The notes under the pieces were generated by a model, which saw only the letters and a program-made list of their open reading frames with translations, was not told the origin of the DNA and ran no database searches. DNA of 37,806 nt, taken from positions 2,714 to 40,519 of the forward strand of contig JAMYWO010000324.1 of assembly GCA_024220525.1 (NCBI GenBank), in the 5' to 3' direction. Source of the stretch: Cochliopodium minus (taxonomy: Eukaryota; Discosea; Himatismenida; Cochliopodiidae). This document shows, one piece after another, positions 26,867 through 37,806 of this stretch (positions are counted from its first letter, which is position 1; each line of letters starts with the position of its first letter). The position numbers and the translations under genes are program-made.

Positions 26867-29722
26867 ATGAGAAGCTTACTTTTGGTAGTTTTATTGATTT
26901 CTCTTGGAATAGCTGTCAATGCACAAATTAACAGTTTAAGTCACATTGTTGGTGGAAACTTCAACAGAGCTGGTTACAGAATCGCCCAAGGATTCGGAGC
27001 TTGGGATACAAAAACCAGCAGATTTGTAGATTTGCCTTATGGAACATTTGGTGGTGGATCTGTCAGTGATGTGGCAGCAGCAGGAAATGGATTTCTCGTA
27101 GTTGGAGGTAAATTTTTAAAATGGAAATTAACTTGTTATTCTTTAGGGGAAATTTAAATTTTATTGTTTTAAATTTCTTATTTGTATAATTAAAATTTTT
27201 TTAAAAATAAATAAAGATTTCCAAAGTGTTAATAATATTCCTGCCAACGGTATTGCATTCTTTGATGGAACTAGATGGTGCTCTTTCCCTCATCTTAATT
27301 TGTATACCTACCCAAAGCCAAATCCTCCAGACAATACCTTCCCAAGACCATCAAGCCAAACTGCAAATTTCGGATCAGCAACTGCAATCTATGCAACTGG
27401 AAGCACTTACTATGTATTTGGAGGTTTGAGTAGTAATGGAAAACCAAGATTCAATCAAGTGGGTAAAAAAAAGTTTTTTTTTTTTGTTGTACGTTCATTT
27501 TAAATTTTAATTTTTAAAAAGGAACCAGAACCTCTGGTGTTGCTGGATTGGTCAGACTTACTTTTGATGGAACCTCAAACTTTTCCATCGATGCAACCCA
27601 ACTCGGATTTGACACCATGGGATTGGGATTTCCAAATGAATTTAACGGAAATGGATTCCCTGCAGATTCAGCACCACAAACTAATGTTGGTTTAACCAAA
27701 TTAAGAGTGATCAACAGTGGAGGGCAATTATCATTCTACGTACATCCAAATCTTGGAACTGGATCTCAACTTTATCGTTGGAGACAAAATGATGGTGCTT
27801 GGTTAATTGTTACCCAAACCAATGTTAGACAATTCAATGTATCAAGCAATCCAACCACTTTCAATGTTCTTGCAGCTCAACTCTCTTCAAGAATCTTCGA
27901 TTTTGATGTTGATGCAACTAACAACGTAATATTTGTAGCAGGAAACTTTGATAACACATTCAATAATACCGCTTCTGTACAATATCTCCACGTTGCAAGT
28001 TCCAACAATGCTCACACCACATCTGTAACATGGCAAAAAACTGTCAACTGGTCAAATAACACCTTGTACCAAGGTGGGTTTGCAACTGCTATAACTGTAG
28101 TAAACCAAAATCAATATTACGTTGCTCTCCCATTCAACAGAGTTGATACTATTTATCCAGTTGACCAATACTATGTTCATGCAGTCAACAGTGGTACCCC
28201 TTCTTTTATTGGAGGACGTTTTGCTAAAGCAGACGGAAGTGCACCTACCATTAGAAAACTTATGTATTTCAATAACAAACCTTACGCTTTTGGAGACTTT
28301 TCTCTAATTGATTATGTTTTGGATACAACTAATCTCTGGCCTAGACGCTACTTCAGAAAAATCTCAGGAGCTGTTTCTTTTGACGGAAACAATTGGGTTG
28401 ATGCTTATGGAGGATTCACTTCTCTCAGTACCACTCTCACTGGTTTACCAGGAGTTGCAGTTGGAAGTAACGGAATTGATTATGTATGGGTTAAAGGAGC
28501 TACTGATTTTTATGATGTCTATTCATCTGGTGGATTGGTTGCTTATAACACCAAAACTTACAAATGGGTCAATTTGGCTTCCCAAAGATTTACTCTCAGA
28601 AATGGAGATAACGGAGATGATGGAAACATCAATGCAATTCACTTTATTAAAAAACAAAGAGATGGAGTTACTGATGCAGTCGTAATTGGAGGAAACTTCG
28701 ACTGGTTCGGAACTCAATACTTGGGATCTGTTGCATTCCTCAGAACTTCCACCAACACCCTCGAACAACTTGGAGGAGGAGTTTTCTTGGACGAGAACAA
28801 TCCTAAATTCTCTGGTGATCAAGTTACCCCAATCTATAAAGCAGGTACCGTCTACGATATCGAAGAAGTTAATGGAAACTTTTATGTTGGAGGTTCATTC
28901 TCCAAGAACATCGAGGGTAAATGTCTCGGTAACATTGCTTCTGTATCTGTCAATGGAGGTACTTTTGCTCAAGTTGGAAGTGGATGTGATGGAACTATTT
29001 GGGATATGTTGGTAAACGGAGACTTACTCTACATTGGAGGAGACTTTAACTCTTGTAACGGAATCCAAGGAACCCGTAGAATTGCTCAATATAACACCAA
29101 AAAGGGAACCTTCTCTGCTTTGTCCACTGGTTTCTCTGACGGAAGAGTTTATGCTATGATCATGTGGAAAGGAGATTTGTTGGCAGGAGGTTCATTCACA
29201 ACTGCACCTGCTTCTTATAGAAGTTCAGGGGCAACTGGTTTGTACAAATGGAATGGAAAGAGATGGTCTCCTCTCTTTGGAAAATGCCAAATTAATTGTG
29301 ACCAAGGAGAATTCACCTTTCCATTCGCTGGAGGTGATCCACTTTCTAGATCTGTCACCAATGTAAAATCCCTCCGTGTCATTGGATCCAACCTTTACAT
29401 CCAAGGACAAACTCCAAGCAGTGGTCAATTACTCATTCAATATGACGGTTCTTACTTTAGACAATTTGGTGTTGCAGCAGGTAGCAGCAACTGTATTAAA
29501 CAAGGATGTATCGCAAGTAACCAATCTCTCATTATTGGTGCTGGTTTCACAAGATCTGGTTCTGATTCTTATAACAACAACTATGAGACCTACAATCCTG
29601 ACTACAAGAATTGGGTTGATACCTTCACTGGTTTCGATAAAGCTCCTGTTTTGGTTGCTTCTTCAACATTCCTCACTTTCACTGTATTTACCCTCTTGTT
29701 TGTCCTCTTCTTATCTTTCTAA
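26867..29722 (+). CDS. GPI-anchored beta-propeller-like surface protein
   Basis: Three exons, 26867-27107, 27217-27462 and 27522-29722, giving 895 aa. It begins with a signal peptide (MRSLLLVVLLISLGIAVNAQ) and ends in a hydrophobic tail (FLTFTVFTLLFVLFLSF) preceded by a short polar region, as expected for GPI attachment. The body contains repeated blade-like units with a GG-aromatic core: HIVGGNF, LVVGG, YVFGGL, FIGGRF, VIGGNF, YVGGSF, YIGGDF and LAGGSF. These are followed by segments such as LYKWNGKRW, in the style of Kelch/Rax2-like propellers. It is Asn-rich with many N-glycosylation sequons (for example NNT, NNS, NQS). The function is unknown; a cell-surface or wall/matrix role is likely. 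A clear paralog sits at the right edge of the window. Confidence 0.85.
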
Positions 29723-33406: not shown

Positions 33407-36145
33407 TCATTTGGAGATCTTTTTTAAAATCTCAATCAAATCCTTGATGAAGATTTTGGAGAGACAATCTCTCAGTTTGAGATCAATATCATCACAAGAG
33501 GATTTCTTGAGAGAAAAAAGGAATTGCTGGAAAGGCTTGAAACGATCATTCCTTTTGATCTCATCAAAGAAGGAATTGCAAGAAGATAACTGAGAATAAA
33601 AACTTTTCATTTTGTCATAAAAAAGATCAAAATTGATTTTGTTGGAGTGATATAGAGATTGAAAAGATTGAAACTGTGGCAAAGTCAAGAAGGAATGATG
33701 AGAATTGATTTTGAGGACTTCCAAGAAAATTTTTTGGAGGAGAGAGCACGGCAAAGATTTCTCAGGCATGGAGGACCACTTTTGATGATTCAAATGCAAA
33801 TTGATCAATTTTAGTTGTTCGTAGGATGGAAGTTTGTATGAATAAAGAGAGTTTTCAAAAATGATAATCAATCCCTTTTTCAAAAATAAATTTGGTTAAG
33901 CACAAGGATTTTTTCAAAAAGCAAAGAATTAAAAAAAAGAAAGTAAACTCTACCTCAAAATAAGTAGGATCTTGTTGATACAGAAACTCTTTCATTGTAG
34001 AGTAGTTTTGAAACTTTAGAGGCTGGTTGATTGTGTAATTAAATTTGTTGGAAAAGGGAAGGGGATCATGAAATTTGAATCCGGGATTCAGAGAAGAAGA
34101 GATATCAGAAAAGGAGTGGACGTAGATGAGAGTGAGTTTTAGATCATTAAAATCAGAAGGAGAAAGGAGATAAATGTTAGAATATTGATCTTTGTGAAGC
34201 TGAAAACAAAAGAAAAGGTCGGAGAACTCTTCAGTGGGAATGACATATTTGCTTTTCTCAAACAGCTTCCAAAAGTGATGAGCTCCAAAAGAAAAAGATT
34301 TGTCGATATCTTTTGGTTGTATCATAACTCTCCACTGACCCCCAAAGAAGTACAGAACAGCCAAAAAACCTCCCAGTTTTTTATAGATCTCAAATTTGTC
34401 AAAGTTAAGAGGATTCTCCATCTTTTCCAAAACAGATTTAGAAGTGTTGAAGGGGATACTCTTTTCAAAAGTCCTGCAAATAACCTTAAAGTGGTTGTCA
34501 GTAGTATGATGCAACACAATCCCGTTCCAACACTCATTCATGATCTTATGGTTGTACTTGCTTTCTGATTGGACATCATGGGAGAGGCTTTCTTTTCTGT
34601 GTGAACAAATCTGGGTGAGTTTTTCTCCCTTATCCAAAAGTAAGGAACTATTCACTGAAATTTCGAAAAGCTTTACAGTTTCTTTAACACCTATCTTCTC
34701 GCAAAAACCCATAGTCCATAATCTATCTCCCTCAAATATGGATTGGTATTGATCCACATACTCTTTCAAGCACTGTTTCTCCAAAACCAAAATTTTCTCG
34801 TTTTGAAAGGTGACAATATGAGAATAATCAAAAGGGGTCTTATTATCCTTGTTATTTTCTTGAAGAACAAAACCCACCCAAGCGTTCAGCTTTCCAAACA
34901 CAACCTCCTTGCCTCCTTTGGACTTGTACACCAAGAAAGCATCCTCATTGATAAACCCTTCCTCTCCATTGAATCTCAGCTTATCATCAATCGTCTGCAA
35001 GTTCAATTTGTCGCCTCTCCTTAAATAGCCTTTCTCTATCAACCTATCAAAACATACACTATCAAATGAAAAAATGTTTTCGACCAAAGTGGAGTACTTC
35101 TCATAAAAGGGCCTGTATTTCCATTCGAATTCCTCCCAATCTTCAAACTTTTCTTCCATTATTTCAAAATGTAGTTTGTTGGTTTCCTCTATGTCCACTA
35201 TTTTGCTGTGTTTCAGTATCTGTATCCCGTAGCAAAGATATCTTAGCCCATGACTTATGTTTTTCTTGCTTTTCATGTGGTCTTTTTCTTTCCATAACCT
35301 CTTTGCTTTCTGCCAGTTGTGGCTTGCATCTTGTAATATCGCTTTTTTGAGCAAACTATTGTTTATCTCCAAACTGTACTCCACTTTCTCTACATTTTTT
35401 AAACTTAAATATTATCTTGTGATAGTATATGAAATTTTTTTTATTAACTTTATCAACTTTATCGAGCAAACCCAGAATCGCATCGAAATTAAAACAAAAA
35501 ATAAAATATTTATCTTTCTAATTAAGATATGTTATTCTCGGGCATAATGAGCACCCACACTAAAATTTTTTGTAAAATCATTTGATTGCAATATAAAGAT
35601 AAAGTCATTTCAATTATACAGTAATCAACATGATTTTCAGCATTATACTTGAAATGATCTGATATAAACAACTCAAAAATTTGATGCGATTCTAAAAAAT
35701 AAAATTGTATATTTGAGGTTATATCATATTGTCTGAATATCCAAACAATTTTAAAAGGAATAGAATTTGATTGTATAAAGAAGATAAAGTTAATTTCTTT
35801 TGATTTGGTTTGTTACCCACAATGATTCAATATTTCATCCTTCAAATCACAATCAGGATTTGTATAAACCATTATTGCCCAAACAAAATTCTCATTCAAG
35901 AGATTCTGGAAATATAAAGTATGATACAAGGTGATTTCCACGTCATCTTTTTGATACATCTTGAATCCCAAAAATTTTGGTCCATTTATCACCACAATGA
36001 TATCAAAATCTGAATCTTTCTTATTTGTTCTGTATAAATTTGATCCGAACAAATAACATCCCTCAATAAAATTGATATTGATGTTATTGTTTTCAAATAT
36101 GAATTTCAAAGAGTCCAAACAATTAATTTTCAATTTTTTCTTCAT
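33407..36145 (-). CDS. Nucleotidyltransferase fused to degenerate T4 Rnl1-like RNA ligase
   Basis: Three exons, 36145-35817, 35373-33954 and 33874-33407, giving 738 aa. Residues 1-110 are a pol-beta/MNT-type nucleotidyltransferase: GSNLYRTNKKDSDFDIIVVI (Gly34-Ser35, Asp46, Asp48) and DVEITLY (Glu70). A helical region (KAKRLWKEKDHMKSKKNISH, LRYLCYGIQIL) follows. Residues about 385-620 resemble T4 Rnl1-type RNA ligases: WNGIVLHH and VICRTFEKSIPFN upstream, motif I region FEIYKKLGGFLAVLYFFGGQ (Lys442), FCFQL at motif III, and YFEGLIIIF at motif IV. Several catalytic positions differ from the family (KLDGS is KLGGF; the motif III Glu is Gln; the first Lys of motif V is missing), so the ligase part may be inactive. 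A role in RNA end repair or modification is inferred. The region at 210-270 (IEKGYLRRGDKLNL) is not assigned. The 443-nt first intron is unusually long. Confidence 0.75.
35522..35691 (-). pseudogene. Exon-like fragment in the NTase-ligase intron
   Basis: Within the long first intron of the NTase-ligase gene, an acceptor-like TTTTTTAG at 35692-35699 precedes an open frame ending in TAA at 35522. Its part IEMTLSLYCNQMILQKILVW resembles the NTase segment VEITLYHTLYFQNLLNENFVW in the exon just upstream. It may be a decayed duplicate exon or an alternative exon. It lacks the GS...DxD catalytic motif. The similarity is modest and was judged by eye. Confidence 0.3.
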
Positions 36146-37062: not shown

Positions 37063-37806
37063 TTAAAAAAGATAAGCGAAAATTAAAACAATAAAAGAAG
37101 CAAGAATGATAGATGGGCGAAGGAATGAACCATCTGCCATGGCAGAAGGAGATACAGAAAAACCTCCATGGGAAGGAGTATATTGGAGATTGTTTGAATC
37201 AAATGTTGCAAAGTTAGCACCATTTGCACCACCATTTGTATATGTGGCATAAACATTAATCAAAGCACCGTTTGTGCCGTTTCTGCTGATTAAAGAGTTT
37301 TGGAAACCAGTGGAAGCAATATTGATAGCACCACCTTGATGCCAAGTGTTAGAATCGAACCAAGCGAGAACGTTGAGTCCGTTATCAATACAATATATTC
37401 TTCCTCCGTAATTTCTCAAATTCAAACATCTAACAGGTTTTCTTTCATCAGCAGTTTGGGATGGATTGACACCGATATAAGGAAGAACATCAACAGCTCT
37501 ATCACAGTATCCTCTGCATTTTGCAACAACATTTTCCCAGTGATTTCCACGCCATCTAGCAATACCAGTAGAAGCAATTCTTCCTCCTGCATTCGTAAAT
37601 GTACCTCCAACAAAGAGATCTCCTCCTCTCCATGCTAATGAAGTACCAGCACCAGTAATACCAACTCCGAGATTTCTCCAACTTGCTTTGTTATCACTCA
37701 AGTCAATTCTAGCAATACCATTGGTTGGGATGGATCCTCTGTATAAGCCTCCGTTATATCCAGAAGGATTCAATCCGCAAAATTTGAAAGTACCAGTTAT
37801 GTACAA
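37063..37806 (-). CDS. C-terminal part of a second GPI-anchored beta-propeller protein (truncated)
   Basis: Open on the minus strand from the window edge to the stop at 37063; 247 residues are visible and the 5' part is missing. It repeats the architecture of the gene at 26867: LYITGTFKFCG, DLFVGGTFTNAGG and IARWRGNHWENVVAKCRGYC. The last corresponds to LYKWNGKRWSPLFGKCQINC in the other protein. It ends in a GPI-type tail (SFLRPSIILASFIVLIFAYL). The two proteins clearly belong to one family, but are diverged over most of their length. Many Asn and Gly residues; sequon NGT is present. The first codon is TTG, not a start, because the frame continues off the contig. Confidence 0.85.
   Translation of the reverse strand: MYITGTFKFCGLNPSGYNGGLYRGSIPTNGIARIDLSDNKASWRNLGVGITGAGTSLAWRGGDLFVGGTFTNAGGRIASTGIARWRGNHWENVVAKCRGYCDRAVDVLPYIGVNPSQTADERKPVRCLNLRNYGGRIYCIDNGLNVLAWFDSNTWHQGGAINIASTGFQNSLISRNGTNGALINVYATYTNGGANGANFATFDSNNLQYTPSHGGFSVSPSAMADGSFLRPSIILASFIVLIFAYLF

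Follow-up and report, generated by a model that had tools for sequence, protein, structure and literature searches.

Sequence comparisons and the structure model of a relative show that a three-exon gene of Cochliopodium minus, on the minus strand of a 37,806-nucleotide window (the whole stretch of contig JAMYWO010000324.1 that was analysed), encodes a predicted protein in which a two-domain nucleotidyltransferase (NTase) with a G-S...DxD core is joined to a C-terminal half homologous to T4 RNA ligase 1 (Rnl1). The same comparisons show that the ligase halves of this fused family have lost catalytic residues which the unfused Rnl1 ligases of C. minus keep. As the best explanation we propose, tentatively and at somewhat under even confidence, a phage-type NTase with a former Rnl1 ligase as its C-terminus, which would serve as a reader of RNA ends, the sealing being done separately. 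The gene is composed as follows:

36145-33407, minus strand: three-exon gene, 738 amino acids when spliced, both introns GT-AG.
35817..36145, minus strand: exon 1, the NTase palm (residues 1-110, with G34 S35 ... D46 x D48 ... E70), from the open frame, Pfam and motif columns.
35374..35816, minus strand: predicted intron 1 of 443 nucleotides, GT..AG (GTAACA...GTACAG), from the gene model; stops in three frames.
35373-33954, minus strand: exon 2, open for 473 codons.
35076..35372, minus strand: NTase helical half (roughly residues 111-209, including H151xxR154), from hhalign to the phage family and model confidence.
34734..35066, minus strand: insert of about 111 amino acids (residues ~213-323), observed in the window copy and the transcript open reading frame (ORF) P0001 but nowhere else.
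33954..34733, minus strand: first part of the Rnl1-type ligase domain (residues 324-583), with the NECWNG / TFEKSIPFN region, motifs I and III and the Glu of motif IV.
33875..33953, minus strand: predicted intron 2 of 79 nucleotides, GT..AG, joining ...TYFE to GLIII inside motif IV, from the gene model; the hhalign alignment spans the join.
33407..33874, minus strand: exon 3, with the rest of motif IV (GLIII), the motif V region (SYKLP) and the C-terminal helical domain (residues 584-738).

The NTase signature GS...DxD...E named in a preliminary description of this locus was confirmed: G34, S35, D46, D48 and E70 are intact, and exon 1 matches the Pfam models NTP_transf_2 (2.8e-5, above cut-off) and Polbeta (7e-6, slightly below cut-off), as well as phrog_388 (3.2e-7, across residues 32-101). 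Residues 13-203 align with a profile of phage two-domain NTases through both palm and helical half (hhalign, probability 98.7, E 1.5e-16), and the opening ten blocks of the structure model for exon 2, which form the helical half, have a predicted local distance difference test (pLDDT) score of 84-98. The window protein keeps all tested columns of the phage family (G, S, D, D and the helical H and R). The first four are present in 13 of the 13 rows of the NTase alignment, the helical R in 13/13 and the H in 11/13, and both helical residues occur in 47/47 phage rows. The enzyme had been called a minimal, MNT-type NTase, a label that has to be given up; judged from these alignments, it is a two-domain enzyme of phage type with the helical half as an integral part, as in phage proteins of about 203 amino acids, in HalB and in the aminoglycoside nucleotidyltransferases. 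The fold of the latter two is also matched, at the level of modelling, by P0002, a complete 650-amino-acid transcript ORF from a relative, with the same NTase-ligase architecture. Minimal NTase antitoxins of the MntA type consist of a single palm domain, from which the two-domain, ligase-fused window protein differs, and its match to the MntA NCBIfam model (0.0058, 16.5 bits) does not reach the cut-off of 60. This weak palm match to an adenylyltransferase antitoxin is the sole hint of the protein AMPylation suggested earlier, which thus finds little support.

The downstream region was rightly read as Rnl1-like. Residues 324-738 align with a canonical Rnl1 profile, built from three C. minus ligases and one from a viral contig, over 259 columns (hhalign, probability 95.9, E 6e-9); the alignment covers motifs I, III, IV and V and reaches the C-terminal helical domain. 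The rerun score of 64.9 compares with a maximum of 21.9, and a probability of 1.0, in 60 shuffles, and the canonical profile itself recovers T4 RNA ligase 1 (1.2e-17) from the PDB. The Rnl1 family PF09511 gave no match with the exon 2 and exon 3 frames at E<=10 or with the spliced protein at E<=1; since the Pfam models do not see the domain, its divergence must be large. Structure prediction, proposed earlier as a check, gave a model of exon 2 of low quality (pLDDT 63). RNA ligases fill most of its top PDB rows, but these are weak matches, none of which reaches E<=0.001.

The ordered motifs stand as letters (KLGG at 442, FCFQL at 498 and EGLII at 583), but not as a catalytic set. At the columns I K, I D, III E, IV E, V K and V K the window has K, G, Q, E, K and P. 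The motif I Lys (K442) is retained and the Asp is gone; the motif III Glu is replaced by Gln, likewise in P0001; the motif IV Glu-Gly pair is E583 and G584, given that intron 2 is spliced as predicted; and motif V has one Lys followed by Pro, in a gapped part of the alignment. The window protein therefore differs from T4 Rnl1 (PF09511) by the loss of the KxDG Asp, the motif III Glu and one motif V Lys. The 46 phage ligases compared (cut down from 75 ORFs) keep each position in 45 or 46 of 46 cases, and the unfused C. minus ligases C8, C45b and C118 (3/3) keep all of them, whereas the complete set is found in 0/10 fused rows (nine loci and P0002). Even the catalytic Lys is replaced in C33 (Tyr), C159 (His), C45a (Tyr) and P0002 (Arg). 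The motif I letters lie within uninterrupted ORFs in the window, C33, C426, C159, C45a and C50, and within transcripts for the window and P0002; the motif I exon of C251 was not recovered, and its letters there carry no evidential weight. The ligase table and tree leave out C1 (partly masked), C37, C120 and C3 (whose ligase half was not recovered), as well as C2a, C531, C400, C14, C214 and C223, which are more distant C. minus ligases. No NTase of the fused family was found beside the unfused C8, C45b and C118. With catalytic positions of these motifs lost both from the window protein and from the other fused members, a working ligase is unlikely.

The helical half and the ligase domain lie inside one uninterrupted ORF in the window and in paralogue C33, and the fusion is complete in P0002. 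Given the frequency of stops in the local intergenic DNA, an exon 2 frame of 473 stop-free codons has P of about 5e-18, and exon 3 is stop-free in its own frame as far as the terminal stop. The same domain pair was sought elsewhere and occurs at no fewer than nine fused loci in C. minus (at least nine, window included) and in P0002, so that the locus is not a single oddity. P0002 also matches five further, unmodelled places (C26, C169, C103 and two on C1). Some paralogue models were trimmed by hand: C251 lost a spurious segment, C50 and C426 their tail exons, and C3, C37 and C1 their ends. Contamination was rejected in view of the neighbours, which as far as tested are ordinary genes of eukaryotic type (NSRP1, PQ-loop, TPPII, RanBP zinc finger, CXC and Rax2), and of paralogues on eleven other contigs, one of them 540 kb long, most of whose models have several introns; the genome comprises 44.65 Mb in 598 contigs. 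We found no published account of an NTase-Rnl1 fusion in a search that did not extend to Burroughs and Aravind 2016 or the Hailong paper.

Closest to the NTase half are two-domain NTases of jumbo phages (phage G gp109 and XacN1 ORF208; distantly phrog_388), in which palm and helical half extend over the whole length, as in the window. With the NTase half of C251 as query, tblastn gave 29 phage records at E<=1, of which 16 cover >=80% of the query, the best being XacN1 ORF208 (9e-12); a viral scan with the C251 NTase found no relative. Four of these phage NTases have 202-212 amino acids, with GSRVYG..SDYD-like and helical HxxR motifs. These motifs are common to the jumbo-phage enzymes and the window family; the phage NTases stand alone at about 203 amino acids, whereas the window protein carries a fused ligase domain. 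Scans with two short patterns each, whose locus counts are lower bounds, yielded 46 viral NTase loci and a single one in 84,980 bacterial and archaeal species genomes. An Rnl1 ORF was present within the fetched 5 kb at 8/51 NTase loci, always on the same strand. The RNA-repair setting proposed at the outset thus proved right, because the NTase family adjoins an Rnl1 gene in part of the phages. When ligase-centred loci were included, 117 loci contained 54 NTase ORFs and 75 ligase ORFs, 12 loci had both, and NTase and ligase in a single ORF were found in none of the 117; L107 is an additional locus with both but a cut NTase, and several of these loci are near-copies of one another (e.g. L084 and L085).

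A cassette in L084, L090, L103, L074 and L107 consists of the NTase, a small zinc protein, a subtilisin-like protease, Rnl1 and a P-loop kinase-HD protein, the zinc protein and the protease being named by eye. The protease is an unexplained member among these phage RNA-repair genes. In L064 a PNKP (HAD_PNKP 3.5e-31) adjoins Rnl1, and in XacN1 and RAS14 the NTase is close to NAD/ADP-ribose genes. A metagenome Rnl1 ligase, P0005, has after motif I an intein-like stretch (precomputed match to PF14890, an intein family).

In passages of PMC7824862 and PMC9503650 the published view is that NTases and RNA ligases jointly restore lost nucleotides in phages. PMC7824862, in the part concerned, speaks of RlaP (PF10127), an NTase beside RNA ligases that is predicted to restore lost nucleotides before sealing, and predicts NTase-ligase co-operation for jumbo phages. 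Our phage neighbourhoods agree with the view given in these passages, although the comparisons did not place the phage NTase family in RlaP. The three phage two-domain NTases tested match in Pfam only general nucleotidyltransferase models, plus RlaP under cut-off, and one has an extra chance-level match to an unrelated lipoprotein model. RlaP matches occur in 3/9 paralogues (best 0.0013). Membership in RlaP was rejected, given that the window protein has no PF10127 match at E<=1 and that the phage family reaches a probability of 0.6 (hhalign) against one C. minus RlaP. The RlaP idea is said to have originated with Burroughs and Aravind 2016. RlaP itself is present above cut-off in C. minus at L054 (C314), C414, C4 and C253 (best 8e-30).

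The ligase tree separates the 46 phage rows, P0005 among them, from the fused and unfused C. minus rows (branch support 98), and branch lengths are 1.2 to 3.2 for fused versus 0.8 to 1.1 for unfused rows. In the NTase tree the fused rows fall outside a phage group that holds C3 (support 90). Both trees place C159, C45a and C50 together, and the window, P0002, C426, C2b, C251 and C549 in one larger group. Locus L029 (C3) has an NTase-helical gene, with no ligase half recovered, placed among phage NTases; to judge from its position, C3 is possibly a separate, later gain from phage. These trees settle neither an origin from phages nor how many transfers took place.

The insert is missing from the eight other fused C. 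minus models and from P0002, has no Pfam match at E<=10, and no second copy of it was found in the genome; it is transcribed (P0001) and mostly below 50 in pLDDT in the exon 2 model. A suspected resemblance to the RAMA domain was discarded in view of this lack of a Pfam match and the low model confidence. RAMA matches elsewhere in the genome number three, one above cut-off. Tandem degenerate copies of the NTase 3' end, seen by eye in intron 1, were also rejected, as 81/300 dinucleotide shuffles score equally high. At 27548-29722 and 37063-37806 the window has two surface-type beta-propeller frames, alike by eye only; the first matches Rax2 (PF12768, 1.5e-9), and the second has no Pfam match.

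C. minus carries a large RNA ligase set: PF09511 has 11 matches above cut-off on ten contigs (C2, C531, C400, C14, C214, C8, C1, C45, C223 and C118), and none above cut-off in 14 control genomes. On the reverse strand of L053 (C118), an intact Rnl1-like ligase (EKIDGS) has directly upstream of it, in the same orientation, a PF22600 palm gene (1e-9; mitochondrial-poly(A)-polymerase-like), and a 261-nucleotide GT-AG intron is one of four able to join the two. A fusion of this poly(A)-polymerase- or terminal-uridylyltransferase-like gene to the C118 ligase was not adopted, the joins being possible yet unproven.

Several points weigh against our reading and temper it. The sole transcript ORF that matches the window gene, P0001 (440 amino acids, 99%, with 3/440 residues different), spans M143 to F582, is without exons 1 and 3, and stops one codon before exon 2 does, the next codon in the assembly being one for Glu; its source may be a strain that has an early stop here. 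Beginning and ending inside exon 2, it backs neither splice junction, and no transcript support was found for the exon 1-2 and exon 2-3 junctions, so that the reading as one protein stands for the helical half and the ligase, and for P0002, but not by transcript for the window's own junctions. Three protein searches were made, scoring the 8000 candidates with most shared words in each, and the first two gave nothing beyond this transcript among them. In the ligase half K442 and the motif IV Glu remain, and a residual adenylylation may persist. At the third acidic position of the NTase the window has Glu, the other 12 of the 13 rows have Asp (5), Asn (6) or Gln (1), and 27/47 phage rows have Asn; given this variability, catalytic activity of the NTase half is likely, not certain. 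At 43/51 phage NTase loci there is no Rnl1 inside the fetched flanks. The trees are quick ones, with an arbitrary root, many weak forks and warnings of long branches that meet and of an odd letter make-up in the window row; C33 shifts from C45b in one to C120 in the other. The fused rows are not one clade in either tree and need 3 changes on each, so that the trees neither establish a single fusion nor exclude it.

An unlikely alternative is a conflict effector, in which the NTase would make a short oligonucleotide signal or block tRNA ends during infection and the ligase-like half would sense damaged or foreign RNA. In the Hailong defence system HalB has the effector HalA as partner, and the signal is oligodeoxyadenylate; HalB and the window protein have the two-domain NTase fold in common, the matched HalB chains (about 217 residues) being without a ligase domain. 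Quite unlikely is a decaying copy, which would have become a pseudogene recently or would retain just the middle part of the gene: the extent of P0001, followed by a Glu codon in the assembly, the three lost ligase residues and the long window branch in the ligase tree would fit it, but 738 codons are open over three exons, the NTase core is intact, the gene is transcribed, and the relative has the complete transcript ORF P0002. A bifunctional repair enzyme, whose NTase restores lost nucleotides and which seals the RNA itself, is very unlikely, since, despite the two persisting ligase residues and the co-operation predicted for RlaP systems in part of PMC7824862, Gly and Gln replace the KxDG Asp and the motif III Glu, both suggested in a passage of PMC11071452 to be metal-binding helpers, and four fused members lack the catalytic Lys.

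In the favoured reading of a phage-type NTase with a former ligase as RNA-end reader, the ligase half would still bind broken RNA ends (5' phosphate / 3' OH) without sealing them and would present the 3' end, to which the NTase would add a single nucleotide or a few; sealing would then fall to one of the cell's intact, separate Rnl1 enzymes. Phage-type genes were probably the material from which the family was put together before it multiplied. A fuller scenario, rather doubtful as a whole, is that a jumbo-phage-type NTase and an Rnl1 were taken up and fused, that the ligase became a non-catalytic reader of RNA ends, and that a fast-evolving family now tails or marks cut RNAs, possibly in an RNA-damage or antiviral response, with intact sister ligases sealing them. 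The partnership of NTase and ligase predicted for phages in part of PMC7824862 is here covalent, eukaryotic and multiplied. Among the copies tested, the eroded fused and intact unfused ligases form a clean contrast provided by nature, on which the ability of a ligase fold to act as a reader of RNA ends can be examined. The family also bears on whether protists turn phage-type RNA-repair tools against RNA damage or viruses, and suggests that in C. minus a viral-type RNA-repair kit has been turned into something new.
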